Shown here piece by piece: positions 30,148 to 59,895 of a stretch of DNA of 64,000 bases (the stretch's first letter is position 1; every line of letters starts with the position of its first letter). The stretch covers positions 620,001 through 684,000 of the forward strand of contig NZ_CP073015.1 in the NCBI RefSeq assembly GCF_018080005.1, written 5' to 3'. Below the pieces are notes generated by a model, which worked only from the letters and a program-made list of their open reading frames with translations, was not told where the DNA came from and made no database searches. Origin of the DNA: Flavobacterium sp. CS20 (lineage in GTDB: Bacteria > Bacteroidota > Bacteroidia > Flavobacteriales > Flavobacteriaceae). The translations under genes and the position numbers were made by a program.

Positions 30148-30303
30148 AATGATGTAGTCAATACTCAAAGTCAAGGTGGCAACCCCTTTCTTAAACATGA
30201 ATATAATCTTGATTTAACCTACGATGCTCAAGATCCGAGTAGAAACTTCATAAACAAAACACAGACCCACCTAAATAAACCGGTAAGTGATCTCAATGAA
30301 CCA

Positions 30304-41581: not shown

Positions 41582-42417
41582 AAACCATTGAAATGCTATT
41601 TCGCTATTATAACCCCAAAACCAGTTTATGGTTGAGTGTTGACCCGCTTGCGACGAGAGGACCGCAATACTCGCCTTACTCTGCATTCTTCAATAATCCA
41701 ATCATTTTTACAGACCCTGACGGAAGATGGACTATTTATGGTAAAGATGGAGGATATTTAGGTGATGATGGAAAATATGAAAAGGGGAAAGATTTAGCTT
41801 TTACCGGTACTGCTACTTACGATAACAAAGGCAATATTACAGGCTATGAAAACCTATCACAGTTCACTGATAATCATACACAGTTTCAAACTATATCAAA
41901 CATTGTAAAACACGAGGGGGTTACCAATGATGCTAACGAATATCTTTGGGTTGCTCATACTGCAAATAATGCAGCAAATGCGAGTGGCAAATCTCTATAC
42001 AGCAAATTAATGTCGGGATATTCCTCTGTTGGTAAAGCGGATAAAACAGCACTATCAATTTCAGACAATAGTACTACTGCAAAATATGCCAGAGCGGGTG
42101 TTATTGATGTAATGTCAGGTGGAGCAGACCCAACAGGTGGGGCTACTTTGTGGGACGGTACAGATTTTTTAGCGTGGGGGTTGAAATCACCAAACGGAAC
42201 GCCACAGAACAAATTTGAAGAATACAAAAGCATATCTATTTCAGGCGACATTTATAGTGATTTCCTAAATAGCCAATTAAGCAAGTACACAAGTGGGAAA
42301 GTAAGATATAGCGGTACTTACTATAACCTTCCTGCCGATGTATTTACAGATAAAGCTAGTTGGAACAAGGAAGGTAACTTCTTCTTCAATACGGAGAAAA
42401 GCGACCGTATGGATTAA
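41578..42417 (+). CDS. Truncated core joined to tip6, copy A
   Basis: 279 aa from TTG 41578 (ATG 41593 also possible). Only ~12 core residues remain (RYYNPKTSLWLSVDPLA) before tip6. Tip6 has KHEGVTNDANEYLWVAHTAN and SGGADPTGGATLWDGTDFL, which recall SleB-type cell-wall hydrolases (Glu near the start, then a DPTGGA segment); moderate to low certainty. Copy A loses one base near 42391 and ends early at NTEKSDRMD; copy B keeps NTGEKRPYGLK and reads to the full end. The nucleotide break between core and element is at 41640/41641. Confidence 0.72.
   Translation: MKTIEMLFRYYNPKTSLWLSVDPLATRGPQYSPYSAFFNNPIIFTDPDGRWTIYGKDGGYLGDDGKYEKGKDLAFTGTATYDNKGNITGYENLSQFTDNHTQFQTISNIVKHEGVTNDANEYLWVAHTANNAANASGKSLYSKLMSGYSSVGKADKTALSISDNSTTAKYARAGVIDVMSGGADPTGGATLWDGTDFLAWGLKSPNGTPQNKFEEYKSISISGDIYSDFLNSQLSKYTSGKVRYSGTYYNLPADVFTDKASWNKEGNFFFNTEKSDRMD
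41635..41646 (+). other. Left attachment-like site (AGTGTTGACCCG)
   Basis: Twelve bases encoding S-V-D-P of the RHS core, shared with 50374-50385 and 59116-59127. Left of it the sequence is RHS core; right of it is element A. The three copies sit 8,739 and 8,742 bp apart and frame both tandem units. Confidence 0.75.
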
Positions 42418-42473
42418 AAGCTACGGGAACTGCGGGGCGTTCAATCTTTTGGAAAAAAGAAAAATAGCACAAT

Positions 42474-43002
42474 ATGAAAACTCTAATTTACATTATGCTA
42501 TCTGTGTTCTGTTTATCTTGTAAAGGGCAAAATACTCAAGATAGCGGGAAGAACAAAAGTAAAAGAAGCTACGCTAATAGATACAATATCCATATTGCCA
42601 TTAAAGAACAAACAGTATGGGAGTAATAATTACAAAGTTTTACAGCTATGTAATTTAGATAGCGAGGGTTATCGAAATAAATCAACGAGCAGAATAGAAT
42701 TAACCAAAAACGCTAAAGCAGTTTCTTCTATTTCATTGCCCATCCCTGACGAAGAAGTAAAAAACTTCTCTGTAACCAAGATAGCAGAAACAACTAACGG
42801 TTTTGAAGTAGCCGTTAATTGGGGTGGCGGAAACAATATTTATGACGTAGATTTTTATTTTGCACTCAGAGGTAGCCAATTTTATTTAGATGAGATAAAG
42901 ACCGGTAAGTATGGTGCAGATACAGAAGTAACAAGAACAACGAAGAAAATCAATCCACCAATACCAATAAACAAGGTTAAAATTATCGGCTACCTTGAAT
43001 AA
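42474..43002 (+). pseudogene. Immunity candidate for tip6, copy A (shifted)
   Basis: Same gene as 51214-51744, but lacks AC in the AGTACAAAAGAAG context and so shifts frame after ~25 codons. The downstream 135 codons (from 42595) are intact. The signal with lipobox CLSC is preserved. Confidence 0.7.
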
Positions 43003-43009
43003 GCCAAAG

Positions 43010-43030
43010 GCTCGAGCAATCGGGCTTTTT
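43010..43030 (+). terminator. Terminator after imm6 (copy A)
   Basis: Stem GCTCGA / TCGGGC with a GCAA loop and a T5 tail. It ends the toxin-immunity unit and separates it from the convergent TA genes. Copy B equivalent at 51752-51772. Confidence 0.75.
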
Positions 43031-43066
43031 CACTTTACATCTTCATTCTTCGGTGGGGTTCTCTGC

Positions 43067-43396
43067 TTAGTCAAGTTCCAAATTTTCAATCATTTCTTTA
43101 AGTTCGTTAGGCTTTAGGTCGGTTTTTCTCCCTTGTCGTAAATGGTAAGCAGGTAAACTGTTTCGGTAGCTATGTAAGTGGGTAACCACCCTTGCCCCGC
43201 CTCTTTTGCCTTTACCCTTTGAAGCAATAGCCAGACGGATTTTATAGCAGTTATTGCCAATAAAAGTGCCAGCTTCTGGGTTTTCAGAAATCTCTGCAAT
43301 CAGTTCAGCAAATTCATTTTTAAGCGAAGGGAATTTTTTGGCTAATCGCTTTAGTTCTTTTTCAAAACGGTGGGTAGGAATAATGCTATAACTCAT
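43067..43396 (-). CDS. RelE/HigB-like mRNA interferase, copy A
   Basis: 109 aa. MSYSIIPTHRFEKELKRLAK and FPSLKNEFAELIAEI, then KIRLAIASKGKGKRGGARV are typical of the RelE/ParE superfamily (HigB-like). In copy A two opposite indels (near 43135 and 43168) replace the central YIATETVYLLTIYDKGEK with a shifted stretch, so this copy may be inactive; copy B (51809-52141) has the expected sequence. The start overlaps the antitoxin stop by 11 bp. Likely addiction module for the element. Confidence 0.78.
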   Translation of the reverse strand: MSYSIIPTHRFEKELKRLAKKFPSLKNEFAELIAEISENPEAGTFIGNNCYKIRLAIASKGKGKRGGARVVTHLHSYRNSLPAYHLRQGRKTDLKPNELKEMIENLELD

Positions 43397-43592
43397 CCAA
43401 AAGATCTTTGGCTGTTTTCAATTTAAGTTTTCCCTGCTTATGTAGGCGTATTTGTTCGGCGACTTCTTTGAGTTCATCCCAAAGCTCGGCGAGAACCGAC
43501 ATAGGTTTTGCTTTTTTTATAAAGGCAAGGCTTTTTAAAACTTTCATTCCGAAAGTGGCTTCATTATCAGGAATTTCAACTATTACTTTCAT
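43386..43592 (-). CDS. Antitoxin of RelE/HigB-like pair, copy A
   Basis: 68 aa. Begins MKVIVEIPDNEATFGMKVLK and continues with a helical, Lys-rich C-terminus (EQIRLHKQGKLKLKTAKDLL). It precedes and overlaps the toxin gene, as expected of a type II antitoxin. Intact here; copy B is frameshifted near 52235. No DNA-binding motif is evident, so the adjacent XRE gene may regulate. Confidence 0.72.
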   Translation of the reverse strand: MKVIVEIPDNEATFGMKVLKSLAFIKKAKPMSVLAELWDELKEVAEQIRLHKQGKLKLKTAKDLLDEL

Positions 43593-43606
43593 TTTCTCAA
43601 TCTATT

Positions 43607-43971
43607 TTAAATGGTTATGTTCATTGCGTTGCTCAACGCTTCTTTGAGGCGTTTGTTGGCAATGGCGGTATCAATCATATTGCAGATGGATTTTTTCTGT
43701 GTTTCGTCCAGTTCTTCCAGTAACCGGACTTTTTGTAAAAGCGGTTCGTTTACGCTGTTTACTTCTGTACCGTCTTTATCAGCTTCAAAAAACTCAACCA
43801 CATTAATTTCCAAAACAGCGACAATCCGCGCAAAATATTCATTGTGGGGTCGCTTTTACCTGTTTCTATGCGGTTATACTGCACCCGGTTCATAGAAAGC
43901 CTGTCTGCCACTTCCTGCTGAGAAAGTCCCTTTTCTTTCCTGACCTTTTTTATTTGTTCTGCAATGTCCAT
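43607..43971 (-). pseudogene. XRE-family repressor split by a shared frameshift
   Basis: Frame 1 (43971 to 43759) encodes an HTH: DIAEQIKKVRKEKGLSQQEV, ADRLSMNRVQYNRIETGKSD. The second frame (43813 to 43607) carries the continuation VVEFFEADKDGTEVNSVNEP and LDETQKKSICNMIDTAIANK. Joining them at ~43850 would give YFARIVAVLEINVVEFF, the natural XRE reading. The same break occurs at the same place in copy B, unlike most other defects, so it may be real or even functional. It is divergent from the SymE-primase genes and likely represses them. Confidence 0.7.
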
Positions 43972-44000
43972 CTATCTGTAAAATACTTTGAATGATACTG

Positions 44001-44008
44001 CAAAGTTA
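44001..44008 (-). promoter_or_regulatory. -7 box for XRE gene (TAACTTTG)
   Basis: Minus-strand TAACTTTG, 30 bp before the XRE start. Divergent from the SymE promoter box at 44081. Copy B equivalent at 52748-52755. Confidence 0.5.
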
Positions 44009-44080
44009 CAAAATAAGCCATTAAATGGCAATTTGTAAAAATAAAGTTTAGAATTGGTGTAACAATATAGTTTCTTTTTG

Positions 44081-44088
44081 TAGTTTTG
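44081..44088 (+). promoter_or_regulatory. -7 box for SymE-primase unit (TAGTTTTG)
   Basis: TAGTTTTG, 35 bp before the SymE start; matches TAnnTTTG. A TTG lies 24 bp upstream, slightly far for -33. Copy B equivalent at 52828-52835. Confidence 0.5.
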
Positions 44089-44122
44089 TTGTGTAAAAAA
44101 ATTGTAACACAAATTTTTCAAG

Positions 44123-44416
44123 ATGGAGATAAACGAGATAAAACAACGGCATACAGTGGCAGGCAAACACACGAAAACAATCAAGCTCCAACCCAAGCAC
44201 CGGGAGTTGTCAGACGGTCAAAAAACAATACCATGGCTTACAGTGTCAGGAAAGTGGTTAGAGGAGTTGGGTTTTAAAATTGGCGAAACAGTACGCATCA
44301 CCACACGGGAAAAGTCGCTGATCATTGAACCACTGGAAGGAGAAGCCAAAGAACAGGAGGAATACAAAACCGCCCTGCAGGAAGTAAAACAAACCCTTAA
44401 AAAGCTAAGTCAATGA
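44123..44416 (+). CDS. SymE-like protein, copy A
   Basis: 97 aa. RELSDGQKTIPWLTVSGKW, LEELGFKIGETVRITTREKS and LIIEPLEG follow the SymE pattern (AbrB-like fold; W-L-x-x-x-G-F-x-x-G). SymE in E. coli is an SOS-induced toxin with RNA- or DNA-compacting activity. Here it is first in a unit with the primase: its TGA overlaps the primase ATG (ATGA). The Lys-rich C-terminus (QEVKQTLKKLSQ) is extra. It could be a regulator of the element and not a toxin. Identical in copy B. Confidence 0.75.
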   Translation: MEINEIKQRHTVAGKHTKTIKLQPKHRELSDGQKTIPWLTVSGKWLEELGFKIGETVRITTREKSLIIEPLEGEAKEQEEYKTALQEVKQTLKKLSQ

Positions 44417-45871
44417 CCATACAAGAGATAAAAGACAAGTTAACCCTTGCAATGCTCCTGCAAGCATTACGGGCTGAAAGCCGATAAACAAGCAAGGTTA
44501 AAATGTCCGTTCCACAACGACAAAACCCCGAGCTTACAGCTTTACTACAAAACCCAAACAGCGTTTTGCTTCTCCACCAACTGCAACACCCACGGCAAAG
44601 CCATTGATGTAATCGACTTCATACTGTACTATGAGAAATGCGACAAACACGAAGCAATCAAGAAGGCAAAAAACATCATCCAACCCGGAACAACCACCAC
44701 CCAAACCACAGTACCAAAGCAGACCAATGAGAAAGCAATGTTCTTAGAAAGAATGTTTACCTACTTTAAAAATGCGGTGCACAACTCCAAACCAGCCCGG
44801 GAATACATCGAGAGCCGAAACCTTGACCACAAGCAAATAGAAATCGGTTACAATGGCGGGCAGTTCCACCACGGACAACGAAAAGATGAAAGCCTGATAA
44901 ATGACTGTTTAAAATACGGTCTGCTCTTAGACTTGGGACTGAAATCAAGAACAGGCGAAACCGCTTACAAACCCTTTGGCAAATGGTGCCTGTGCTTCGC
45001 ATTGAGAAACCAAAACCACGAAATCACAGGCTTATACTTTAGAAGCACTTTAGCCAACAAAGACCAACGGCACTTTTATTTACGGGACAGGAGCGGACTA
45101 TATCCAAGCTATCCCAAACCTGAAACCCAAAAGCTGATATTGACCGAAAGCATCATTGATGCGACTTCACTATTGCAACAGGAAGAAATCAAAAGCAAGT
45201 ATGAAATCCTCTCACTCTACGGAACCAACGGACTAACAGAAGAACACCAAACAGCCATCCGAAAACTGAAACACCTAACGGAAATCATCTTCTTTTTAAA
45301 CGGTGATGAACCGGGAAACAAAGCAGTAGCCAAATATGCCCCAATGCTTAAAGGAGAATATCCCAACCTAAAAATTACAAGTGCAGCAGTTCCGAAAAAC
45401 GAAGATGTAAACAGCCTTTTGCAAGTGCACAGCCCCGAAATATTAACCCACTTAATAGAAACAAGAAAAGAAGTAGATTTTATTCTTTCAAATGGCGGTG
45501 AGCCACCGCAGGCAGATATTTTTCTTTCAAATGAAAATCAAATGAAAGAAAAAAGCACAATAACTGAAGAACCAGAACCAACCAGATCCAAAGCACCGAT
45601 AACCGGACTTGACACCAACAACCCCTACAATCTCAAATACAAAGGCAATGAAGCCGCTTACCAAATCAAAGGCTTTAGGACAGACCAGCCGGACAGCCTG
45701 AAAACCACGGTACAGACCATAGCAGAAGCAAGCGACATTACATTAAAACTCGACCTGTACGAATACAAGCAAGTGGAAAGCTCCTGCAAACTCATAGCGG
45801 GAAAATTAGGACTGCGGAAAGACGCCATAGAAGCCGATTTAATGCAACTCACAAGCCTTTTAGAACAATAG
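44413..45871 (+). CDS. CHC2 zinc-finger/Toprim primase, copy A
   Basis: Starts at ATG 44413 overlapping the SymE stop. One extra C near 44464 shifts frame; the open frame then runs 44447-45871 (~485 aa in total). The zinc finger is CPFHNDKTPS ... FCFSTNCNTHG (CHC2 type). The Toprim-like domain has LTESIIDATSLL and FFLNGDEPGNKAVAKYA. Stops at TAG 45869-45871, but the same frame continues (RDKQQFKANGRQ) straight into the helicase, and copy B has the same TAG. Thus primase and helicase may be one polypeptide in related elements. It probably makes primers for element replication. Confidence 0.82.
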
Positions 45872-45922
45872 CGGGACAAACAACAGTTCAAAGCCAATGG
45901 AAGGCAGGAGAGCAAAATACAA

Positions 45923-47112
45923 GTGCCGGCGACCACAGCCACCAAATGCATCGAGTTCCTGAAAGCTGAAAAACTCGTGCAACGAATAAACAAACTCATC
46001 GGGAAAGCAGGGATAACAGGAGAAGAAACCAACCGTATTTTATTGTTTGTAATCGCAAGCTCTTACAAAATGCCCGACACCTTACACGCATTAATACAAG
46101 GCAGTTCAGGAAGCGGAAAGACCAGGCTATTAAAGATTATCAGCTACCTGATGCCTGATGAAGATGTAAAGCGATATACAAGGGTTACGGACAACAGTTT
46201 TTACAACCAGGACGAATATTTTTTTGTCAACAAACTGATATGTTTTGAAGACTTGGACGGACTGAAAGAAGATGCACAGCTTGCCGTAAGAGAGTTGCAG
46301 AGCAACGATATACTAAGGACATCCACCAGTTTAAAAGACAAGAACGGACAGATCACCGGAGGCGAAAGAATCGTGAGAGGACCGATAGCCAGTTTAGCCT
46401 GTACCACCAGAGGCGAAATCTATGAGGACAACATCAGCCGTTCATTCCTGATTGCAGTAGATGAAAGCAAAGAACAAACCTTAAAAATCATCCGCTATCA
46501 AAATGAAGTATCTGCAGGAATGATAGACCCACAAGAACAAAAGAAAACAAGCCAGTTTATACAGAACTGCATCCGCTTACTAAAACCCTATGAAGTCATT
46601 AACCCTTACGCCAACAAAATACAACTGCCCGAATCAGCCCACAAAATAAGACGCTTAAACGAACTCTATCAAAGCTTTGTAAAGCAAATCACCCTACTGA
46701 ACCAATACCAAAGAAAGCAAGACAAACAAGGCAGGTTAATCACCGAAACAGCCGATTTACAAACCGCTTGTGAAATCCTTTTTGAAAGTATCGTGCTGAA
46801 AGTAGATGAATTAGACGGCAGTTTAAGACAGTTTTTTGAAACCCTTAAAGGGCATTTAATTAAAAAGGGCAAAGCAGAAAATAATAGTCACTGCGACACG
46901 CAGTTTACACAACGGGAAATCCGCCAAACCCTGAACATCAGCAAAGCCCAGTCAAAGAGATTTTTTAACCACCTGCAGTCAATGGAATACATCACGGCAA
47001 AGTACTCGGAAACCAACGGAAAGTATGCTACAAAGTGGATTATTGGGACAACTACGCCAAAGTAAGGGCACAGATAAAAGACGATTTAATGAACCAAATA
47101 GCAGGACTGTAA
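45923..47112 (+). CDS. P-loop ATPase/helicase-like protein, copy A
   Basis: GTG 45923 start, in frame with the primase. Walker A is IQGSSGSGKTRLLKII, Walker B-like is KLICFEDLDGL; RTSTSLKDKNGQ and CTTRGEIYEDNISRSFLIAV follow. The C-terminus is a winged-helix-like segment (FTQREIRQTLNISKAQSKRF). Copy A loses one G near 46998-47002 (ACTCGGAAACC for ACTCGGGAAACC) and ends at 47065; copy B reads to DDLMNQIAGL, so the true end is 47112. The product likely loads or unwinds DNA with the primase; iteron-like repeats start 11 bp after it. Confidence 0.8.
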
Positions 47113-47122
47113 AAGGGTAAAT

Positions 47123-47219
47123 GGAACAATACGGAACAATCTTGGAACAATCATTTTAAACTCAAACCCTTTTAAATCAATGCTTTTAGAATAGAAATAC
47201 CCCAACTGTTCCCTGTTCC
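47123..47219 (+). repeat. Iteron-like repeats GGAACAAT / TGTTCC, copy A
   Basis: Three direct GGAACAAT copies at 47123, 47133 and 47144, then two TGTTCC units in opposite orientation at 47207 and 47214. They sit between the helicase and the recombinases in 190 bp of otherwise gene-free DNA. Arrangement suggests protein-binding sites for a replication origin or recombination control. Confidence 0.65.
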
Positions 47220-47273
47220 ACAAAGTGGATGTGTGTGTAAAAGATGCAAATCATCATAGCGTAATAATTAAGT

Positions 47274-47286
47274 GCCGATTATCGGC
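47274..47286. promoter_or_regulatory. Palindrome before recombinase 1 (GCCGAT-T-ATCGGC)
   Basis: A perfect 13 bp palindrome 19 bp before the recombinase 1 ATG. Fits an operator for a dimeric regulator or a recombinase site. Also present at 56020-56032 in copy B. Confidence 0.5.
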
Positions 47287-47305
47287 TTCCAAAAAGTGAG
47301 TGTAT

Positions 47306-48247
47306 ATGGGAAGACCTTCAAACATCATAGTAGTAACAGCAGATTACCAAAAATTAGCCGAAAGTTTTTACCAATACCAAAAGCGGTTGGGTTATGTAGA
47401 AAACAGCTACAAAGCACGATTTAATTACCTGAACGAGTTTTTACAATGGTTGGAGCAACAAGGCTTGTTGGATATTACCCAAATCCAAGCCCCGGAAATC
47501 AACCGCTATTACAGTTACATCAGTTCCCGACCAAGTAAAAAAGACGGAGGAGCATTAAGCCAAAAGACCACCCACAGTCATATGCGAATTATCCGGGATC
47601 TGTTTGAAATGCTTTTAAGAAACGGAGAAATACAAATCAATCCCTGCAGTACTTTAAACTTCCCTTATCCCAAAATCAGTGAAGAAAGAACCGTATTAGA
47701 CCAGGACGAAATCAAAGAACTTTACCAAGCCACAGAAACAGCACAGGAACGAGCTATTTTAAGTTTAGCCTACGGATGCGGATTAAGAGTTGGAGAGTTG
47801 GTAAAATGCAATATTGAGGACATTAGATTAAGAGAAAAAATATTGATAGTGCCACAAGGCAAAGGCAATAAAAGAAGAGTGGTTCCAATGAGCAGCGGAG
47901 TAGGCAAAGACTTGGCAAACTATTATTACAACGAAAGGGACGAGCTGACCAAAGGACGGGATTACAAGCCCAATCAAAACGCATTTATCTTGCACTCCAG
48001 AGGTGGAAGAATGAACAAAGACACCTACAACAAGCACTTAAAAAAACTGATAGAAAGAACCGGAAACCTTGAAATGAAAGAAAAACAAATCACTGTTCAC
48101 AGTCTCAGGCACTCGATAGCCACGCATCTTTTAGAACAAGGAATAGCAGTAGAACAAGTCAGAATGTTTTTAGGACACTCACAGCTTGAAACCACCCAAA
48201 TCTATACCCACATCAGTAAAGAACAATTAAAAGAGTTGGTAAAATGA
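47306..48247 (+). CDS. Tyrosine recombinase 1 (XerC/D-like), copy A
   Basis: ~313 aa from ATG 47306 (GTG 47300 would add two residues). An N-terminal SAM-like core-binding domain (YQYQKRLGYVENSYKARFNY) is followed by a catalytic domain with all four key parts: Arg in SLAYGCGLRVGELVK, His/Arg in HSLRHSIATHLLEQG, the FLGHSQLETTQIYTHIS box with final Tyr nucleophile. It should cleave and exchange DNA strands at short core sites and is the candidate enzyme that integrates the element at LSVDP codons. Copy B is broken by two shifts. Confidence 0.9.
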   Translation: MGRPSNIIVVTADYQKLAESFYQYQKRLGYVENSYKARFNYLNEFLQWLEQQGLLDITQIQAPEINRYYSYISSRPSKKDGGALSQKTTHSHMRIIRDLFEMLLRNGEIQINPCSTLNFPYPKISEERTVLDQDEIKELYQATETAQERAILSLAYGCGLRVGELVKCNIEDIRLREKILIVPQGKGNKRRVVPMSSGVGKDLANYYYNERDELTKGRDYKPNQNAFILHSRGGRMNKDTYNKHLKKLIERTGNLEMKEKQITVHSLRHSIATHLLEQGIAVEQVRMFLGHSQLETTQIYTHISKEQLKELVK

Positions 48248-48265
48248 ATTAAAAGAGTTGGTAAA

Positions 48266-49138
48266 ATGAAACTAAAGGAATATCTACAACAAGAGCATAG
48301 CCCTACATCCATCAACAGTTATGAACTGATGATAAACCGTTACATCTTGGCAATGGGAGACAAAGCAGAGAAAGGAACTTATACAGACGTGTTGGATTAT
48401 ATCGGATTATTGAGAGAACAAAATTTACATCCCAAATCACTTAGAAACAACCTGTTTGCAATCAAAATCTACTATCGGTATTTAGTAGCTACAGGAAAAC
48501 GCAACGACCACCCTTGCAGATATTTATACCTGAAAGACCAAATAAACCGAGCTATCCAAGTAGAAAGCCTTTACCCCAAAGAAATATTAGAAGAACTTTA
48601 CGAAAACCACCAAAGCAAAAACCCGGACAATCAGAACAGGGATAAAATCATCATTAGTTTACTCATTTACCAAGCCTTGGCAGTCCTTGAAATCTCCCAA
48701 CTCAAAACAACCGATATCGACCTTGAAAACGGAATCATCAGAATAAAAGGAAATGTAAAGAACAAAGGCAGAACACTAAGTTTAAAACCCAATCAAATAC
48801 TACTGTTCCACAACTATTTAAAGCACGATTACAAACGCTATCACCGCAGACAAAAGCCAAGTAAACGAAAGGATTATTTTTTGCTCAATGATGAAGGATT
48901 ACAGCTTTGGCAAAGTGGCATCAACCGAATGATAAACAAAGAAAGAGACCAACAAGAAAAGTTAATCCCACTCAAAATAAGACAGTCCGTAATCGCTCAT
49001 TTGCTCAAAGAAAACAATGACGTTAGAATAGTCCAGGAATTTGCAGGACACAGACGGGCGACCAGTACAGAAGCCTACAAACAAACAGGATTAGAAGAAC
49101 TTAAATCAGCCATTGAAAGACTGCATCCACTCCAATAA
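48266..49138 (+). CDS. Tyrosine recombinase 2, degenerate catalytic residues, copy A
   Basis: 290 aa, 18 bp after recombinase 1 and separated by a short duplicated GAATTAAAAGAGTTGGTAAAATG tail in part. Fold motifs are those of a tyrosine recombinase, but the first Arg position reads YQALAVLEISQLK (no Arg), and the His box is IRQSVIAHLLKEN without the leading His; R of box II and the HRR...Y region (AGHRRATSTEAYKQ) remain. It may be a DNA-binding partner of recombinase 1, like a non-cleaving subunit. Copy B has two shifts (near 57232 and 57810). Confidence 0.85.
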   Translation: MKLKEYLQQEHSPTSINSYELMINRYILAMGDKAEKGTYTDVLDYIGLLREQNLHPKSLRNNLFAIKIYYRYLVATGKRNDHPCRYLYLKDQINRAIQVESLYPKEILEELYENHQSKNPDNQNRDKIIISLLIYQALAVLEISQLKTTDIDLENGIIRIKGNVKNKGRTLSLKPNQILLFHNYLKHDYKRYHRRQKPSKRKDYFLLNDEGLQLWQSGINRMINKERDQQEKLIPLKIRQSVIAHLLKENNDVRIVQEFAGHRRATSTEAYKQTGLEELKSAIERLHPLQ

Positions 49139-50274
49139 ACCTGTATTGAGCCTGTCGAAATAAAGAAATCCTTCCCACGAAAATCCAACGCACGGAGTTT
49201 ATATTGAGCCTGTCGAAATGCCCACGCTTCGGCACTCCGTAAAACTCCGTGCCCCCAACACAGGAAAAGCGGTGTTCCGCCTTCGGTCGTCAGCAAATAA
49301 AACCGCCAAGCTTTTGCAAGACATTTTTTGAAAGCGTTGATTTTTTAAAGGTCAAAAAAGAGTCGCAAAACCCTACGGGTGCTCCGTAAACTCCGCGACT
49401 TGTCACTTTTATTGCGTTCCTCTGTCAGTTGTCACGGCGACCTACTTTGTCTGCTTTTGCCGCTTCTCTTCACTTCATTGCGCTTTGCCAGGCTTCGCAG
49501 AGTTGATTTATTTTTTAATGGTTTGCTCAGCTTGGCAAGTGCTCATTCCGTTCAGTTCAGCCGCAAAAAATCCACCGGTCGCCCATAATTTTGCTCGCCT
49601 GCGGGTCGCTGTGGGTAACGGCTGACTTTATTGATTTGCCTCCGCTTCGCTCTGGCGATTAAATCGGTAGCCTACTGCGGGCAAAAAAACAAGCCTCGAT
49701 TAGTAGATTGATTTTTAAAGGTATCTCCGTTTGTTTTTTGCCCTACGTAGCGCAAACCGCCCTCGTTCCTCGTGCTTTTATTTGCACCACCCTTGCTCCA
49801 CTCGCAGGCGGCTCGCGAAGCTTGGTCAATGTCCGCAATCCGTTCCGTTACTCTCCACTCATTGCAGCCATTGCCCAGCCGTTTAGCTCAAGGCTGTTTT
49901 TCCTGTGTTTACACACTTTTGCCGACCCACAGTTAAAAAGAAAAGTTCCGTGCATCCTTCCGCGCGAAACAAAGCCCTGCCCTCTGAATAAAGTTTAGTG
50001 GTTCGCTTGGATGCTCATTTTTATCGAAGGATGCCCGACAGGTTTAGGGTAAAAATCAAGTTTTGTGCAGGGCATCCATCAATAAAAATCGAGCGCTGAT
50101 TTTTTTCTTTCATCTGAAACCGAAGGAAATGAGGTTCACGAACACCTTTAAAATAAACATACAGTGAGTAAAACCTGTAAGAACTGAAAACACTTGTTTA
50201 TCAAATCCCTGTGGGACTTTTTCAGTTGAAAAGAAAAAAGTTAGGGTATTTTTTTGTAATTTTCGCCCTTTAAA
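49139..50274. other. GC-richer non-coding 1.1 kb, copy A
   Basis: No credible gene in 1,136 bp; open frames here lack coding character. Features seen: TATTGAGCCTGTCGAAAT repeated at 49144 and 49202; inverted arms GCACGGAGTTT (49190-49200) and AAACTCCGTGC (49242-49252); many GC-rich, skewed stretches around 49400-49960 and a final AT-rich run before the leader. The sequence is conserved in copy B (57881-59016), so it is part of the element. It may hold an origin, an RNA or recombination arm sites. Confidence 0.6.
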
Positions 50275-51207: not shown

Positions 51208-51213
51208 CACAAT

Positions 51214-51744
51214 ATGAAAACTCTAATTTACATTATGCTATCTGTGTTCTGTTTATCTTGTAAAGGGCAAAATACTCAAGATAGCGGGAAGAACAAAAGT
51301 ACAAAAGAAGCTACGCTAATAGATACAATATCCATATTGCCATTAAAGAACAAACAGTATGGGAGTAATAATTACAAAGTTTTACAGCTATGTAATTTAG
51401 ATAGCGAGGGTTATCGAAATAAATCAACGAGCAGAATAGAATTAACCAAAAACGCTAAAGCAGTTTCTTCTATTTCATTGCCCATCCCTGACGAAGAAGT
51501 AAAAAACTTCTCTGTAACCAAGATAGCAGAAACAACTAACGGTTTTGAAGTAGCCGTTAATTGGGGTGGCGGAAACAATATTTATGACGTAGATTTTTAT
51601 TTTGCACTCAGAGGTAGCCAATTTTATTTAGATGAGATAAAGACCGGTAAGTATGGTGCAGATACAGAAGTAACAAGAACAACGAAGAAAATCAATCCAC
51701 CAATACCAATAAACAAGGTTAAAATTATCGGCTACCTTGAATAA
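51214..51744 (+). CDS. Immunity candidate for tip6 (lipoprotein), copy B
   Basis: 176 aa, 6 bp after tip6. Lipoprotein signal with lipobox CLSC (residues ~13-16), then a beta-rich domain (ISLPIPDEEVKNFSVTKIAE, VAVNWGGGNNIYDVDFYFAL). No family recognised. Envelope location agrees with a wall- or periplasm-acting tip6. It is carried inside the element, so toxin and protection move together. Confidence 0.72.
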   Translation: MKTLIYIMLSVFCLSCKGQNTQDSGKNKSTKEATLIDTISILPLKNKQYGSNNYKVLQLCNLDSEGYRNKSTSRIELTKNAKAVSSISLPIPDEEVKNFSVTKIAETTNGFEVAVNWGGGNNIYDVDFYFALRGSQFYLDEIKTGKYGADTEVTRTTKKINPPIPINKVKIIGYLE

Positions 51745-51808
51745 GCCAAAGGCTCGAGCAATCGGGCTTTTTCACTTTACATCTTCATTCTTCGGTGGGG
51801 TTCTCTGC

Positions 51809-52141
51809 TTAGTCAAGTTCCAAATTTTCAATCATTTCTTTAAGTTCGTTAGGCTTTAGGTCGGTTTTTTCTCCCTTGTCGTAAATGGTAAGCAGGTAAA
51901 CTGTTTCGGTAGCTATGTACAAGTGGGTAACCACCCTTGCCCCGCCTCTTTTGCCTTTACCCTTTGAAGCAATAGCCAGACGGATTTTATAGCAGTTATT
52001 GCCAATAAAAGTACCAGCTTCTGGGTTTTCAGAAATCTCTGCAATCAGTTCAGCAAATTCATTTTTAAGCGAAGGGAATTTTTTGGCTAATCGCTTTAGT
52101 TCTTTTTCAAAACGGTGGGTAGGAATAATGCTATAACTCAT
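51809..52141 (-). CDS. RelE/HigB-like mRNA interferase, copy B (intact)
   Basis: 110 aa. Same toxin as at 43067 with the uninterrupted core strand VVTHLYIATETVYLLTIYDK and the C-terminal LKPNELKEMIENLELD. Expected activity: ribosome-associated or free mRNA cleavage when the antitoxin is lost. The partner antitoxin in this copy is frameshifted, so protection would need the copy A antitoxin. Confidence 0.8.
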   Translation of the reverse strand: MSYSIIPTHRFEKELKRLAKKFPSLKNEFAELIAEISENPEAGTFIGNNCYKIRLAIASKGKGKRGGARVVTHLYIATETVYLLTIYDKGEKTDLKPNELKEMIENLELD

Positions 52142-52339
52142 CCAAAAGATCTTTGGCTGTTTTCAATTTAAGTTTTCCCTGCTTATGTAGGCGTACTTGT
52201 TCGGCGACTTCTTTGAGTTCATCCCAAAGCTCGGCGTGACAACCGACATAGGTTTTGCTTTTTTTATAAAGGCAAGGCTTTTTAAAACTTTCATTCCGAA
52301 AGTGGCTTCATTATCAGGAATTTCAACTATTACTTTCAT
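52131..52339 (-). pseudogene. Antitoxin of RelE/HigB-like pair, copy B (shifted)
   Basis: Same gene as 43386-43592. The sequence around 52233-52240 has an altered, longer stretch (GCGTGACAACC versus GCGAGAACC) that breaks the frame in the middle. Confidence 0.7.
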
Positions 52340-52353
52340 TTTCTCAATCTATT

Positions 52354-52718
52354 TTAAATGGTTATGTTCATTGCGTTGCTCAACGCTTCTTTGAGGCGTT
52401 TGTTGGCAATGGCGGTATCAATCATATTGCAGATGGATTTTTTCTGTGTTTCGTCCAGTTCTTCCAGTAACCGGACTTTTTGTAAAAGCGGTTCGTTTAC
52501 GCTGTTTACTTCTGTACCGTCTTTATCAGCTTCAAAAAACTCAACCACATTAATTTCCAAAACAGCGACAATCCGCGCAAAATATTCATTGTGGGGTCGC
52601 TTTTACCTGTTTCTATGCGGTTATACTGCACCCGGTTCATAGAAAGCCTGTCTGCCACTTCCTGCTGAGAAAGTCCCTTTTCTTTCCTGACCTTTTTTAT
52701 TTGTTCTGCAATGTCCAT
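52354..52718 (-). pseudogene. XRE repressor split by shared frameshift, copy B
   Basis: Identical organisation and break to 43607-43971: HTH half 52718-52506, C-terminal half 52560-52354. The identity of the break in both copies contrasts with other defects. Confidence 0.7.
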
Positions 52719-52869
52719 CTATCTGTAAAATACTTTGAATGATACTGCAAAGTTACAAAATAAGCCATTAAATGGCAATTTGTAAAAATAAAGTTTAGAA
52801 TTGGTGTAACAATATAGTTTCTTTTTGTAGTTTTGTTGTGTAAAAAAATTGTAACACAAATTTTTCAAG

Positions 52870-53163
52870 ATGGAGATAAACGAGATAAAACAACGGCATA
52901 CAGTGGCAGGCAAACACACGAAAACAATCAAGCTCCAACCCAAGCACCGGGAGTTGTCAGACGGTCAAAAAACAATACCATGGCTTACAGTGTCAGGAAA
53001 GTGGTTAGAGGAGTTGGGTTTTAAAATTGGCGAAACAGTACGCATCACCACACGGGAAAAGTCGCTGATCATTGAACCACTGGAAGGAGAAGCCAAAGAA
53101 CAGGAGGAATACAAAACCGCCCTGCAGGAAGTAAAACAAACCCTTAAAAAGCTAAGTCAATGA
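52870..53163 (+). CDS. SymE-like protein, copy B
   Basis: 97 aa, identical to the copy at 44123. Overlaps the primase start by ATGA at 53160. One promoter box at 52828-52835. Confidence 0.75.
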   Translation: MEINEIKQRHTVAGKHTKTIKLQPKHRELSDGQKTIPWLTVSGKWLEELGFKIGETVRITTREKSLIIEPLEGEAKEQEEYKTALQEVKQTLKKLSQ

Positions 53164-54617
53164 CCATACAAGAGATAAAAGACAAGTTAACCCTTGCAAT
53201 GCTCCTGCAAGATTACGGGCTGAAAGCCGATAAACAAGCAAGGTTAAAATGTCCGTTCCACAACGACAAAACCCCGAGCTTACAGCTTTACTACAAAACC
53301 CAAACAGCGTTTTGCTTCTCCACCAACTGCAACACCCACGGCAAAGCCATTGATGTAATCGACTTCATACTGTACTATGAGAAATGCAGCAAACACGAAG
53401 CAATCAAGAAGGCAAAAAACATCATCCAACCCGGAACAACCACCACCCAAACCACAGTACCAAAGCAGACCAATGAGAAAGCAATGTTCTTAGAAAGAAT
53501 GTTTACCTACTTTAAAAATGCGGTGCACAACTCCAAACCAGCCCGGGAATACATCGAGAGCCGAAACCTTGACCACAAGCAAATAGAAATCGGTTACAAT
53601 GGCGGGCAGTTCCACCACGGACAACGAAAAGATGAAAGCCTGATAAATGACTGTTTAAAATACGGTCTGCTCTTAGACTTGGGACTGAAATCAAGAACAA
53701 GGCGAAACCGCTTACAAACCCTTTGGCAAATGGTGCCTGTGCTTCGCATTGAGAAACCAAAACCACGAAATCACAGGCTTATACTTTAGAAGCACTTTAG
53801 CCAACAAAGACCAACGGCACTTTTATTTACGGGACAGGAGCGGACTATATCCAAGCTATCCCAAACCTGAAACCCAAAAGCTGATATTGACCGAAAGCAT
53901 CATTGATGCGACTTCACTATTGCAACAGGAAGAAATCAAAAGCAAGTATGAAATCCTCTCACTCTACGGAACCAACGGACTAACAGAAGAACACCAAACA
54001 GCCATCCGAAAACTGAAACACCTAACGGAAATCATCTTCTTTTTAAACGGTGATGAACCGGGAAACAAAGCAGTAGCCAAATATGCCCCAATGCTTAAAG
54101 GAGAATATCCCAACCTAAAAATTACAAGTGCGACAGTTCCGAAAAACGAAGATGTAAACAGCCTTTTGCAAGGCCACAGCCCCGAAATATTAACCCACTT
54201 AATAGAAACAAGAAAAGAAGTAGATTTTATTCTTTCAAATGGCGGTGAGCCACCGCAGGCAGATATTTTTCTTTCAAATGAAAATCAAATGAAAGAAAAA
54301 AGTACAATAACTGAAGAACCAGAACCAACCGAATCCAAAGCACCGATAACCGGACTTGACACCAACAACCCCTACAATCTCAAATACAAAGGCAATGAAG
54401 CCGCTTACCAAATCAAAGGCTTTAGGACAGACCAGCCGGACAGCCTGAAAACCACGGTACAGACCATAGCAGAAGCAAGCGAAGATTACATTAAAACTCG
54501 ACCTACGAATACAAGCAAGTGGAAAGCTCCTGCAAACTCATAGCGGGAAAATTAGGACTGCGGAAAGACGCCATAGAAGCCGATTTAATGCAACTCACAA
54601 GCCTTTTAGAACAATAG
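53160..54617 (+). pseudogene. CHC2/Toprim primase, copy B (shifted)
   Basis: N-terminus is intact here (MTIQEIKDKLTLAMLLQDYG, with the CHC2 finger) and proves the start at the SymE overlap. Frame breaks: an extra A near 53700 (ends the first frame at 53789; the next begins 53749) and changes near 54482-54510. The TAG before the helicase (54615-54617) is conserved with copy A. Combining A and B gives an intact primase. Confidence 0.75.
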
Positions 54618-54668
54618 CGGGACAAACAACAGTTCAAAGCCAATGGAAGGCAGGAGAGCAAAATACAA

Positions 54669-55858
54669 GTGCCGGCGACCACAGCCACCAAATGCATCGA
54701 GTTCCTGAAAGCTGAAAAACTCGTGCAACGAATAAACAAACTCATCGGGAAAGCAGGGATAACAGGAGAAGAAACCAACCGTATTTTATTGTTTGTAATC
54801 GCAAGCTCTTACAAAATGCCCGACACCTTACACGCATTAATACAAGGCAGTTCAGGAAGCGGAAAGACCAGGCTATTAAAGATTATCAGCTACCTGATGC
54901 CTGATGAAGATGTAAAGCGATATACAAGGGTTACGGACAACAGTTTTTACAACCAGGACGAATATTTTTTTGTCAACAAACTGATATGTTTTGAAGACTT
55001 GGACGGACTGAAAGAAGATGCACAGCTTGCCGTAAGAGAGTTGCAGAGCAACGATATACTAAGGACATCCACCAGTTTAAAAGACAAGAACGGACAGATC
55101 ACCGGAGGCGAAAGAATCGTGAGAGGATGATAGCCAGTTTAGCCTGTACCACCAGAGGCGAAATCTATGAGGACAACATCAGCCGTTCATTCCTGATTGC
55201 AGTAGATGAAAGCAAAGAACAAACCTTAAAAATCATCCGCTATCAAAATGAAGTATCTGCAGGAATGATAGACCCACAAGAACAAAAGAAAACAAGCCAG
55301 TTTATACAGAACTGCATCCGCTTACTAAAACCCTATGAAGTCATTAACCCTTACGCCAACAAAATACAACTGCCCGAATCAGCCCACAAAATAAGACGCT
55401 TAAACGAACTCTATCAAAGCTTTGTAAAGCAAATCACCCTACTGAACCAATACCAAAGAAAGCAAGACAAACAAGGCAGGTTAATCACCGAAACAGCCGA
55501 TTTACAAACCGCTTGTGAAATCCTTTTTGAAAGTATCGTGCTGAAAGTAGATGAATTAGACGGCAGTTTAAGACAGTTTTTTGAAACCCTTAAAGGGCAT
55601 TTAATTAAAAAGGGCAAAGCAGAAAATAATAGTCACTGCGACACGCAGTTTACACAACGGGAAATCCGCCAAACCCTGAACATCAGCAAAGCCCAGTCAA
55701 AGAGATTTTTTAACCACCTGCAGTCAATGGAATACATCACGGCAAAGTACTCGGGAAACCAACGGAAAGTATGCTACAAAGTGGATTATTGGGACAACTA
55801 CGCCAAAGTAAGGGCACAGATAAAAGACGATTTAATGAACCAAATAGCAGGACTGTAA
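54669..55858 (+). pseudogene. Helicase-like ATPase, copy B (one shift)
   Basis: Same as 45923-47112. First frame ends at 55130 where AGAGGATGATAGCC replaces AGAGGACCGATAGCC; the second frame (55127-55858) carries the natural C-terminus DDLMNQIAGL. Walker A and B are in the first part. Confidence 0.75.
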
Positions 55859-55868
55859 AAGGGTAAAT

Positions 55869-55965
55869 GGAACAATACGGAACAATCTTGGAACAATCAT
55901 TTTAAACTCAAACCCTTTTAAATCAATGCTTTTAGAATAGAAATACCCCAACTGTTCCCTGTTCC
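55869..55965 (+). repeat. Iteron-like repeats, copy B
   Basis: GGAACAAT at 55869, 55879 and 55890; TGTTCC at 55953 and 55960. Same layout as copy A. Confidence 0.65.
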
Positions 55966-56051
55966 ACAAAGTGGATGTGTGTGTAAAAGATGCAAATCAT
56001 CATAGCGTAATAATTAAGTGCCGATTATCGGCTTCCAAAAAGTGAGTGTAT

Positions 56052-56993
56052 ATGGGAAGACCTTCAAACATCATAGTAGTAACAGCAGATTACCAAAAAT
56101 TAGCCGAAAGTTTTTACCAATACCAAAAGCGGTTGGGTTATGTAGAAAACAGCTACAAAGCACGATTTAATTACCTGAACGAGTTTTTACAATGGTTGGA
56201 GCAACAAGGCTTGTTGGATATTACCCAAATCCAAGCCCCGGAAATCAACCGCTATTACAGTTACATCAGTTCCTACCAAGTAAAAAAGACGGAGGAGCAT
56301 TAAGCCAAAAGACCACCCACAGTCATATGCGAATTATCCGGGATCTGTTTGAAATGCTTTTAAGAAACGGAGAAATACAAATCAATCCCTGCAGCATTTT
56401 TAAACTTCCCTTATCCCAAAATCAGTGAAGAAAGAACCGTATTAGACCAGGACGAAATCAAAGAACTTTACCAAGCCACAGAAACAGCACAGGAACGAGC
56501 TATTTTAAGTTTAGCCTACGGATGCGGATTAAGAGTTGGAGAGTTGGTAAAATGCAATATTGAGGACATTAGATTAAGAGAAAAAATATTGATAGTGCCA
56601 CAAGGCAAAGGCAATAAAAGAAGAGTGGTTCCAATGAGCAATGGAGTAGGCAAAGACTTGGCAAACTATTATTACAACGAAAGGGACGAGCTGACCAAAG
56701 GACGGGATTACAAGCCCAATCAAAACGCATTTATCTTGCACTCCAGAGGTGGAAGAATGAACAAAGACACCTACAACAAGCACTTAAAAAAACTGATAGA
56801 AAGAACCGGAAACCTTGAAATGAAAGAAAAACAAATCACTGTTCACAGTCTCAGGCACTCGATAGCCACGCATCTTTTAGAACAAGGAATAGCAGTAGAA
56901 CAAGTCAGAATGTTTTTAGGACACTCACAGCTTGAAACCACCCAAATCTATACCCACATCAGTAAAGAACAATTAAAAGAGTTGGTAAAATGA
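56052..56993 (+). pseudogene. Tyrosine recombinase 1, copy B (shifted)
   Basis: Same gene as 47306-48247. Two lesions: near 56273 (TTCCTACC for TTCCCGACC) and near 56395 (GCAGCATTTTTAAAC for GCAGTACTTTAAAC). The catalytic half (56544-56993, from VKCNIEDI to ELVK) is open, including HSLRHS and the Tyr box. Confidence 0.78.
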
Positions 56994-57011
56994 ATTAAAA
57001 GAGTTGGTAAA

Positions 57012-57880
57012 ATGAAACTAAAGGAATATCTACAACAAGAGTACAGCCCTACATCCATCAACAGTTATGAACTGATGATAAACCGTTACATCTTGGCAAT
57101 GGGAGACAAAGCAGAGAAAGGAACTTATACAGACGTGTTGGATTATATCGGATTATTGAGAGAACAAAATTTACATCCCAAATCACTTAGAAACAACCTG
57201 TTTGCAATCAAAATCTACTATCGGTATTTAGTAGTACGGAAAACGCAACGACCACCCTTGCAGATATTTATACCTGAAAGACCAAATAAACCGGGCCATC
57301 CAAGTAGAAAGCCTTTACCCCAAAGAAATATTAGAAGAACTTTACGAAAACCACCAAAGCAAAAACCCGGACAATCAGAACAGGGATAAAATCATCATTA
57401 GTTTACTCATTTACCAAGCCTTGGCAGTCCTTGAAATCTCCCAACTCAAAACAACCGATATCGACCTTGAAAACGGAATCATCAGAATAAAAGGAAATGT
57501 AAAGAACAAAGGCAGAACACTAAGTTTAAAACCCAATCAAATACTACTGTTCCACAACTATTTAAAGCACGATTACAAACGCTATCACCGCAGACAAAAG
57601 CCAAGTAAACGAAAGGATTATTTTTTGCTCAATGATGAAGGATTACAGCTTTGGCAAAGTGGCATCAACCGAATGATAAACAAAGAAAGAGACCAACAAG
57701 AAAAGTTAATCCCACTCAAAATAAGACAGTCCGTAATCGCTCATTTGCTCAAAGAAAACAATGACGTTAGAATAGTCCAGGAATTTGCAGGACACAGACG
57801 GGCGACCAGCAGAAGCCTACAAACAAACAGGATTAGAAGAACTTAAATCAGCCATTGAAAGACTGCATCCACTCCAATAA
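57012..57880 (+). pseudogene. Tyrosine recombinase 2, copy B (shifted)
   Basis: Same gene as 48266-49138. Frame lost near 57232 (GTAGTACGG for GTAGCTACAGG) and again near 57810 (CCAGCAGAAG for CCAGTACAGAAG). Middle part 57421-57846 is open. Confidence 0.75.
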
Positions 57881-59016
57881 ACCCGTATTGAGCCTGTCGA
57901 AATAAAGAAATCCTTCCCACGAAAATCCAACGCACGGAGTTTATATTGAGCCTGTCGAAATGCCCACGCTTCGGCACTCCGTAAAACTCCGTGCCCCCAA
58001 CACAGAAAAGCGGTGTTCCGCCTTCGGTCGTCAGCAAATAAAACCGCCAAGCTTTTGCAAGACATTTTTTGAAAGCGTTGATTTTTTAAAGGTCAAAAAA
58101 GAGTCGCAAAACCCTACGGGTGCTCCGTAAACTCCGCGACTTGTCACTTTTATTGCGTTCCTCTGTCAGTTGTCACGGCGACCTACTTTGTCTGCTTTTG
58201 CCGCTTCTCTTCACTTCATTGCGCTTTGCCAGGCTTCGCAGAGTTGATTTATTTTTTAATGGTTTGCTCAGCTTGGCAAGTGCTCATTCCGTTCAGTTCA
58301 GCCGCAAAAAATCCACCGGTCGCCCATAATTTTGCTCGCCTGCGGGTCGCTGTGGGTAACGGCTGACTTTATTGATTTGCCTCCGCTTCGCTCTGGCGAT
58401 TAAATCGGTAGCCTACTGCGGGCAAAAAAACAAGCCTCGATTAGTAGATTGATTTTTAAAGGTATCTCCGTTTGTTTTTTGCCCTACGTAGCCGCAAACC
58501 GCCCTCGTTCCTCGTGCTTTTATTTGCACCACCCTTGCTCCACTCGCAGGCGGCTCGCGAAGCTTGGTCAATGTCCGCAATCCGTTCCGTTACTCTCCAC
58601 TCATTGCGCCCATTGCCCAGCCGTTTAGCTCAAGGCTGTTTTTCCTGTGTTTACACACTTTTGCCGACCCACAGTTAAAAAGAAAAGTTCCGTGCATCCT
58701 TCCGCGCGAAACAAAGCCCTGCCCTCTGAATAAAGTTTAGTGGTTCGCTTGGATGCTCATTTTTATCGAAGGATGCCCGACAGGTTTAGGGTAAAAATCA
58801 AGTTTTGTGCAGGGCATCCATCAATAAAAATCGAGCGCTGATTTTTTTCTTTCATCTGAAACCGAAGGAAATGAGGTTCACGAACACCTTTAAAATAAAC
58901 ATACAGTGAGTAAAACCTGTAAGAACTGAAAACACTTGTTTATCAAATCCCTGTGGGACTTTTTCAGTTGAAAAGAAAAAAGTTAGGGTATTTTTTTGTA
59001 ATTTTCGCCCTTTAAA
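57881..59016. other. GC-richer non-coding 1.1 kb, copy B
   Basis: Near-identical to 49139-50274, with one short base change near 58491 and others. No gene supported. Ends in the AT-rich run before the leader ATG at 59017. Confidence 0.6.
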
Positions 59017-59895
59017 ATGGGTCGCCAAAGACTAACATATCACGTTGAAAACCCACTGCTTAAAGTGGTGTATAGAGCCGACAAAGCGGAGCAAAAAAGC
59101 GTACAGAGGTTTTTAAGTGTTGACCCGTTAGCGGAGAAATACCCCTCATGGTCACCATACAACTATACAATGAATAATCCGGTAAGATATGTTGACCCTA
59201 CGGGAATGGTTGTAGAAGATCCAATTTATGGTAAAAACTTTTGGGGTAATTTAAAATACTTAGGCGATGATGGCACGAATAATGGTCGGGTATATTTTGT
59301 AAGCGGTCAAACAAAAAGAGATGTTAAAAATGCGACTGCGAATGGCGAGTTTTATTCTGGTGATTTAAGTAGTTCTGATGAAGTTTCCTCTATACCATCC
59401 CAAATGATTTTTTCTGTGGATCAAAGCTTGCAATCTACCTTATCTTCAAATAAGGAAAATGGTGGACACAGCACTTTTTCAAGTTTTGAAACAACTCAAT
59501 GGGATGAAGGACCTGCAGTAACCAATAGAGATTTAGGAGACGGAAGAAGAGAGGTTAAAGGAAGCGTCCAGCCTTTTGTTGTTGATGGCGATAAATTAGA
59601 TATAGATATGAGCAATCTTGACGTTTATTACCATATTCATCCAGACACACAAGGTTTAGGAAGCTCAACACCCTCTAATTACAGTAGAAATATTAATGGT
59701 AGAAATATAAGAAGGGGTGATATTCCTTATCAGGCTGACTTAGAGCGTAGTGGTTACAATGGAAATCCATTTGTAGTTGGCGCTAGAGATAATCGTGTTA
59801 ACTTTTATAATGGAAGAGGCTCAGTGATGAAAGTGAAATATCAGCAATTTAAAATAACTCTTTTATCTGAATTTATATCACATTTAAGATTTTGA
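59017..59895 (+). CDS. Element leader fused to tip1 (JAB-like)
   Basis: 292 aa. The same 37-codon leader as at 50275, here joined through LSVDPLAEKYPSWSPYNY to the JAB-like tip1 of the main RHS gene, with the HIHP motif intact. So the frame is kept across the right junction. Tip1 would be expressed without the RHS core. One two-base difference from the 31381 copy (GGACCTGCAG versus GGATATGCAG). Confidence 0.78.
   Translation: MGRQRLTYHVENPLLKVVYRADKAEQKSVQRFLSVDPLAEKYPSWSPYNYTMNNPVRYVDPTGMVVEDPIYGKNFWGNLKYLGDDGTNNGRVYFVSGQTKRDVKNATANGEFYSGDLSSSDEVSSIPSQMIFSVDQSLQSTLSSNKENGGHSTFSSFETTQWDEGPAVTNRDLGDGRREVKGSVQPFVVDGDKLDIDMSNLDVYYHIHPDTQGLGSSTPSNYSRNINGRNIRRGDIPYQADLERSGYNGNPFVVGARDNRVNFYNGRGSVMKVKYQQFKITLLSEFISHLRF
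59116..59127 (+). other. Right attachment-like site (AGTGTTGACCCG)
   Basis: Boundary between element B and the duplicated array. The sequence right of it (GTTAGCGGAGAAATACC in part) equals the sequence right of the LSVDP codons at 31381, which is the uninterrupted form. Confidence 0.78.

Follow-up and report, generated by a model that had tools for sequence, protein, structure and literature searches.

Two tandem elements of 8.74 kb in the chromosome of Flavobacterium sp. CS20 begin and end within the S-V-D-P codons that link the core of an RHS protein to its C-terminal toxin tip, and it is highly probable that they integrate at this core–tip joint by means of their own tyrosine recombinases. 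They lie in a window of 64,000 nucleotides (C1:620001-684000; positions without a prefix are those of the window) inside a 3.06-Mb single-contig genome, in which an RHS gene is followed by an array of tips, mostly with a piece of core before them and a small lipoprotein-like gene behind. Small elements of this kind at the RHS core–tip joint likely swap the toxin of their bacterium in one cut-and-join step. Site-specific integration that exchanges an effector together with its immunity gene had been put forward in an original prediction made from this stretch alone, and the sequence comparisons reported here support that reading.

Element ends in the RHS core–tip joint

Direct repeats at 41632-50373 and 50371-59114 represent two tandem copies of one element, where the original prediction had drawn a single element spanning 41635..59127. 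Aligned with one another, the copies, 8739 and 8742 bp long, show 32 substitutions and 23 gap columns, and many of these differences are exchanges of adjacent bases. The purL gene adjoining the array is likewise split over two frames (C1:714040-717716), which points to assembly indels around the array. Together, these observations suggest that the differences between the copies are assembly noise, and frame breaks in either copy should therefore not be over-read.

As predicted, the element ends fall within the S-V-D-P codons, and 12 bases, AGTGTTGACCCG, are found exactly at all three element junctions (41635, 50374 and 59116); the same 12 bases mark ordinary core–tip joints at 31375, 37006 and 40140. 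Each copy closes on the anticipated short leader, which starts at an ATG (50275 in copy 1, 59017 in copy 2) and runs into LSVDPL in frame with the following tip. Displacement by homologous recombination would call for extended core sequence on either side of an arriving tip; instead, leader and core have 14 of their last 15 bases in common, the identity originally estimated. At the left end, the element starts with a tip whose frame reads in from outside the element, followed by a lipoprotein gene; this proposed arrangement is open in copy 2, whereas both genes are frameshifted in copy 1. Two open fusions had also been expected. That between leader and tip1 is indeed in frame, but tip6 sits on a 33-bp core remnant behind the lipoprotein gene of another tip and not on a full RHS gene.

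The same chromosome holds an occupied and an empty version of the element's flank. Two 10.25-kb blocks containing tips 1-5, C1:651381-661634 and C1:679122-689372, are 99.8% identical and flank the two tandem elements (window 31375-41635; C1:679116-689372). The first block breaks at TTGAGTGTTGACCCG and continues into tip6 of the element; the second stops at the same base and continues into tip8, which provides the empty site that had been proposed as a check. Short identity is present at both junctions. The element's right neighbour is tip1 and not tip8, so the repeats of the array appear to have rearranged at least once afterwards. A third, diverged element of the same layout lies further along the chromosome. 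Its left end carries tip7, joined to a core piece, and its leader, MGCLKLTY...KVVYR...VQRFLSVDP, is joined to tip2. This right joint follows the leader through AAG and then continues from CGTCGACCC as in native tip2, which places the crossover of the third element inside the SVDP codons.

The complete tyrosine recombinase noted originally corresponds to recombinase 1 of copy 1 (47306-48247), which is intact; the version in copy 2 has two stops. Among 18 aligned rows, recombinase 1 keeps the catalytic residues R-K-HxxR-H-Y in 17, the exception (L035) being cut by a frame break. The second of the two recombinases expected upstream of the leader is present but catalytically incomplete: 17 of 18 rows lack Arg I, and all 18 lack the His of HxxR. 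The two proteins therefore probably act together, one of them active and the other impaired. Against the IntI-family integrase model TIGR02249, 111.7 bits were reached at a cut-off of 265.

Recurrence of layout, tips and right-end motif

A scan of genome contigs returned nine loci, seven of them at ≥70% identity: in Schleiferia thermophila, a Flavobacterium metagenome-assembled genome (MAG), a MAG labelled Gammaproteobacteria (short contig), Ferruginibacter, Pedobacter sp. ISL-64, a Chitinophagaceae MAG and a Cyclobacteriaceae MAG. The two weak loci (27% and 22% identity) stand outside the loci examined; further element loci are L033, L034, L035, L057 and L093. With the three of the window's genome, the set comes to 18 elements, some of them truncated where a contig ends. 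Right ends were considered testable with at least 900 bp past recombinase 2 (n=15), and an RHS tip follows in 14 of them; left ends were considered testable with at least 1.7 kb ahead of the primase (n=14), and 13 open with a tip that is linked to a core or to the right end of a preceding element. In these counts, completed by eye for the third element, L033, L034 and L093, four joints between neighbouring elements enter both the left and the right total, and the two window copies, nearly identical as they are, form separate entries. The predicted position of element ends at the RHS joint thus holds in other genomes. In L026, L027, L028 and L034 the left end joins an RHS frame that is open over 1875-2195 codons including the tip, up to the edge of the stretch, which is the arrangement originally pictured for core and tip6.

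Tandem arrays of different elements with different tips occur in L027, L029 and L033. Each complete element has its own recombinase pair, and a fixed-platform integron layout was not found. L034 (G263:C1:856001-876000; 6069, 12344) has its ends at a different conserved site of the RHS protein, VAGLNHAMH ahead of the toxin domain, and the tip is again exchanged in frame; the stretch shared at this joint is short and less clear-cut. In the Pedobacter array L027, positions 14709-16700 hold a decayed element that keeps the repressor, a broken recombinase 2 and the right-end motif; no primase, ATPase or recombinase 1 gene was detected at these positions.

The element is sporadic. With the query's own genome counted and E-value limits set per search, matches were obtained in 5 of 346 genomes of the order, 20 of 395 of the class, 3 of 395 of the phylum and 3 of 251 of the Pedobacter family. 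Nine of ten more distant relatives (L058-L061, L066-L068, L070 and L074) have an RHS core and tip downstream, in two cases at 3-5 kb behind other genes. For the 19 class-level loci, gene neighbourhoods were available for 11 and a marker scan only for eight; that scan found RHS joints in two (L065 and L069), without the two-sided layout, and the match of L064 looks false.

The tips vary widely behind related leaders. The third element's leader as query retrieved 42 proteins, 38 of which could be parsed and fall into 28 tip clusters (a looser parsing rule admits 41, P0155 being left out). In 16 of 16 protein pairs with an identical 26-residue leader stretch, no tip similarity was detected at E 1e-3. 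The leader with LSVDP therefore precedes different tips, as had been predicted; its linkage to the recombinases in other genomes was also seen, but the leader is not universal, with no leader-length frame in L023, L027 and L028. Tip6, in turn, occurs at 85-94% identity on five different cores (P0163-P0167), whose mutual identity over the 40 residues ahead of the joint is 31-78%. Of 27 genomes of the same genus as the window, one has tip6, and among the best 120 of 233 tip6 relatives, 22 fit the core pattern, none the leader pattern and 98 neither. The first displaced tip of L027 matches one other genome among 145 of the genus Pedobacter, where its last 115 residues are 77% identical within a 3287-codon open frame, which would fit a toxin domain borne by a complete RHS protein in other genomes.

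The right end is also conserved as DNA. Ten distinct right ends, two duplicate ends being left out, share AAAAG[CT]GT[AG]CAGAGG TTTTTA AGTGTNGA[CT]CC, i.e., 11 conserved bases, a somewhat looser six and another 11 conserved bases, a layout that we take to resemble a Xer site; the largest deviation is in L033. The motif is retained in L023, L027 and L028 despite their lack of a leader-length frame, and the DNA itself therefore seems constrained. A 24-base form scanned with ≤2 mismatches through 11 genomes gave ten matches in eight genomes, eight of them, in six genomes, at element ends, and the reversed pattern gave none in the same genomes; the pattern was built from some of these ends, and the scan therefore tests specificity, not presence. 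Three of the 11 genomes (G1160, G263 and G566) have an element and no motif match, the right end of G1160 being off its contig. The window itself has two matches, compared with none in 100 shuffles, and a search of IMG/VR with the motif returned no match. At the protein level, dN/dS (the ratio of nonsynonymous to synonymous substitution rates) was <1 in six of six pairs of four leaders with 30-31 codons each; in two further pairs with L026 it was <1 in one and undefined in the other, and all of these comparisons are too weak to use.

Gene content and neighbouring features

From left to right the element encodes tip6, a lipoprotein, a RelE-like protein, an XRE repressor, a SymE-like protein, a primase-like and an ATPase-like protein and recombinases 1 and 2, followed by the spacer and the leader (Table 1).

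Table 1. Features of the RHS array and its elements (window positions unless prefixed C1)
Feature	Position	Strand	Basis
Resident RHS gene, SpvB domain, signal-peptide-like start, in several frames, ends with tip1	21490..32154	+	PF03534, E 9.7e-27
Unoccupied-type joint of core and tip1, AGTGTTGACCCG	31375..31386	+	exact match
Putative immunity lipoprotein of tip1	32151..32645; second copy 59892-60386	+	role inferred from position
Putative lipoprotein of tip5, directly ahead of core remnant	40913..41581	+	role inferred from position
Core remnant RYYNPKTSLWL (33 bp), left flank of element	41602..41634	+	repeat family D20
Left junction, attL-like, core to tip6	41635..41646	+	flank without element, C1:689367, joins tip8
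Element copy 1, 8739 bp	41641..50379	+	repeat comparison
Tip6, copy 1, frameshifted close to its end	41647..42417	+	open reading frames and copy alignment
RelE-like gene, frameshifted in copy 1	43067..43396; copy 2 51809-52141	-	PF06296 on copy 2, 27.6 bits (cut-off 27)
XRE-type repressor, divergently transcribed, over two frames	43607..43971	-	PF01381, E 1.7e-12 on 43759-43971
SymE-like protein	44123..44416	+	PF08845
CHC2 zinc-ribbon/Toprim primase-like protein	44447..45871	+	PF01807, PF13155
P-loop ATPase-like protein	45923..47065	+	GSSGSGKT in sequence
Recombinase 1, tyrosine recombinase, XerD-like, all catalytic residues kept	47306..48247	+	domain scan and residue alignment
Recombinase 2, tyrosine recombinase without Arg I and His of HxxR	48266..49138	+	domain scan and residue alignment
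GC-richer spacer, 1.1 kb, no gene assigned	49139..50274	+	253-bp block 92% identical to third element
Leader MGRQRLTYHVENPLLKVVYRADKAEQKSVQRF, 33 codons including start codon, closes on conserved right-end motif; joint codons LSVDP	50275..50373	+	open reading frame and motif comparison
Right-end DNA motif, also the leader–tip6 junction expected for a circle (attP-like)	50355..50384	+	motif comparison
Element copy 2, 8742 bp	50380..59121	+	repeat comparison
Tip6, copy 2, open; predicted SleB-like cell-wall hydrolase fold	50383..51207	+	structure model
Putative immunity lipoprotein of tip6, copy 2, open	51214..51744	+	position and signal-like start
Leader in frame with displaced tip1	59017..59895	+	open reading frame
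Right junction, attR-like, leader to tip1	59097..59127	+	motif match and joint comparison
Third, diverged element, same layout	C1:699914-707406, 21 kb past second copy		recombinase 76% identical

For the array, the frame breaks of the resident RHS gene may be assembly indels. The Rhs-associated core domain TIGR03696 scores 76.2 bits on 39069-40793, above its cut-off of 32.5, and 24.1 bits, under that cut-off, on the fusion of leader and tip6. Tip1 is found after two core pieces and after the element's leader. A Pfam search with nine tips gave no family above cut-off and two below. The one match of tip6 in a search of solved-structure sequences had an E-value of 0.54, for which reason a structure model was made; it predicts the fold of the SleB catalytic domain for tip6, a putative SleB-like lytic transglycosylase.

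Among the remaining genes, the RelE-like gene of copy 1 had no family match in the domain scan. For the ATPase part of the P-loop ATPase-like protein no Pfam family reached its cut-off; the homologue of this protein in the third element has a C-terminal helix-turn-helix match. No relaxase or conjugation gene scored above cut-off among the element open reading frames scanned, a set to which those of the spacer did not belong, and an Rfam scan of 41000-60000 gave no family. The spacer (C1:706282-707300 in the third element) is better conserved between elements in its 253-bp block than the DNA of recombinase 1 (92% compared with 75% identity), and is therefore probably functional, perhaps as an origin or accessory site.

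Searches with the recombinases extended to viruses and plasmids. The recombinase profile found one weak relative in IMG/VR (28% identity), and PLSDB gave one record at 38.5% identity, a single hit that leaves plasmid carriage of the element unsupported. Contigs of 7-10 kb among the best 120 of 1623 recombinase relatives are only suggestive of an excised circle. Contigs of equal size were found for 5 of the 42 leader proteins when compared with the same 120, a coincidence that is suggestive at most; a sixth (1574 bp) was discounted as too short to hold both genes. Separately, ten short frames of about 60 codons on C1 (48159, 53167, 65206, 67285, 78029, 81489, 87061, 141015, 933097 and 1082214) match residues 272-313 of recombinase 1, the region of the catalytic Tyr, and may represent a repeated recombinase fragment or an unrelated repeat.

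Proposed mechanism and relation to known systems

We propose that the element would exit as a circle with a junction of leader and tip, and that its recombinases would recognise the conserved motif of the right end and join it by recombination to the SVDP codons of an RHS core. A single exchange of this kind would leave the resident core reading into the incoming tip and would move the previous tip, together with its putative immunity gene, downstream to beyond the element's right end. Repeated integration at one joint would stack elements head to tail, the newest tip adjoining the core. Homologous recombination between the long core repeats would then likely reshuffle the array and so account for both the duplication of the 10.25-kb block and the presence of tip1, not tip8, to the right of the element.

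Several observations weigh against this proposal. No circle, excision or transfer was seen, and tip6 is joined in this genome to a core remnant only, so that the genome gives no example of a live toxin swap. The identity between leader and core is limited to 12-15 bases; of the six positions to the left of the 12-base identity, where the overlap of a classical tyrosine recombinase might be expected to agree, three differ. Leaders with VQLWLSIDP (L033 7207) or VQMWL (P0144, P0151) instead of VQRFL shift the sequence change still further left, which suggests crossovers to the left of the 12-base identity. L093 is exceptional on both sides, its left tip having no recognised core and no right tip following within 1.7 kb, and two of the ten motif matches (G173:C23 and G453:C55) lie away from elements in the stretches read. 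Relatives are also sparse, with 1 of 149 genomes of the family, the window's own, and only two of the ten more distant relatives have an RHS tip upstream; the two-sided layout is therefore not general to all recombinase relatives.

Three other accounts of the locus deserve consideration. Tips might insert by homologous recombination between RHS core fragments, with the recombinase genes as passengers; core repeats of hundreds of bases stand before several array tips, the 10.25-kb block is duplicated, and the published displacement model invokes such recombination (PMC2935791, in the sections consulted). However, the 14 of 15 bases common to leader and core offer little for homologous recombination at the right end, and the joint is accompanied by the right-end motif and the recombinases in several genomes and next to various tips, which makes this classical route improbable. 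A still less probable account is that of an ordinary integrative element that enters RHS genes at the SVDP codons because these offer a safe, conserved target, the tip being a regenerated 3' end of the target gene, as with prophages. Many integrative elements rebuild their target gene, and short identity at each junction would fit such a process, yet the carried tip alters the C-terminal domain instead of restoring the original, the tips behind identical leaders are unrelated in all 16 pairs (28 clusters in the 38 parsed proteins), and tips usually bring their own lipoprotein or other small downstream gene. That the repeated tips and tandem copies stem from misassembled RHS repeats might be read from the noisy indels between copies and the split purL, but it is very hard to reconcile with the same architecture in independent assemblies, including Pedobacter sp. 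ISL-64, which is not labelled a MAG, and the single-contig G263. Integration at the core–tip joint by the element's own recombinases remains the account that we favour.

Elements of this kind share features with several known systems. Integron gene cassettes form site-specific arrays at one site through a tyrosine recombinase, the newest unit being nearest the expressed end, and the same order would apply to the elements described here. Unlike integrons, they have no IntI-grade integrase, each complete unit has its own recombinases, and the unit is in frame with a host protein. Prophages and islands, such as the icd prophages, integrate within a reading frame and supply an alternative 3' end, which parallels the element-encoded replacement C-terminus. 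Here, in contrast, the replacement is a different toxin domain with a putative immunity gene, and the displaced end gains a leader in some elements. In shufflons, the tyrosine recombinase Rci swaps C-terminal segments of pilV at short sites inside codons by inversion in a fixed locus; the elements would likewise use recombinases to exchange C-terminal segments of one protein at short in-codon sites, but whole mobile elements would integrate and stack.

A close precedent is Rhs C-terminal displacement (Jackson et al. 2009, PMC2935791), in which a new tip takes the core and the old tip is shunted downstream with its neighbours. The sections of that study consulted describe arrays of dissociated tips, propose a circular intermediate and give no co-occurring integrase as known; tip exchange with retention of the core and old tips has been explained so far by homologous recombination and this hypothetical circle. 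The window resembles that system in its core with a new tip, downstream old tip, tip arrays and proposed circle, and differs in that the element brings its own recombinases and joins at 12-15 bases. In bee gut bacteria, integrase genes beside Rhs genes were suspected of moving tips, their role being left open; unlike in our case, the consulted sections of that report say nothing of element ends, a joint or a leader (PMC5727410). Zhang et al. observed XerC/D-type genes adjoining polyimmunity loci, and a paper on O. hominis describes RHS tip arrays and one tip common to Bergeyella. Among the matches listed in a search of titles and abstracts of open papers in PMC, which covers neither subscription papers nor most preprints, such an element is not described.

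We lean towards a broader interpretation in which self-moving warhead cassettes constitute a plasmid-like class of elements, equipped with primase-like and ATPase-like genes, a recombinase pair and a conserved spacer, with half a gene as cargo, a tip with its immunity gene, and the RHS tip joint as attachment site. Tip arrays would then be last-in-first-out records of integration, and C-terminal displacement in Bacteroidota would be driven by dedicated elements and not by chance homologous recombination. If so, these would be mobile elements that carry a protein domain, not a whole gene, as cargo, and the question of toxin diversification would become one of testable sites and enzymes. In a single step, each integration would equip the host with a new toxin and archive the previous one.

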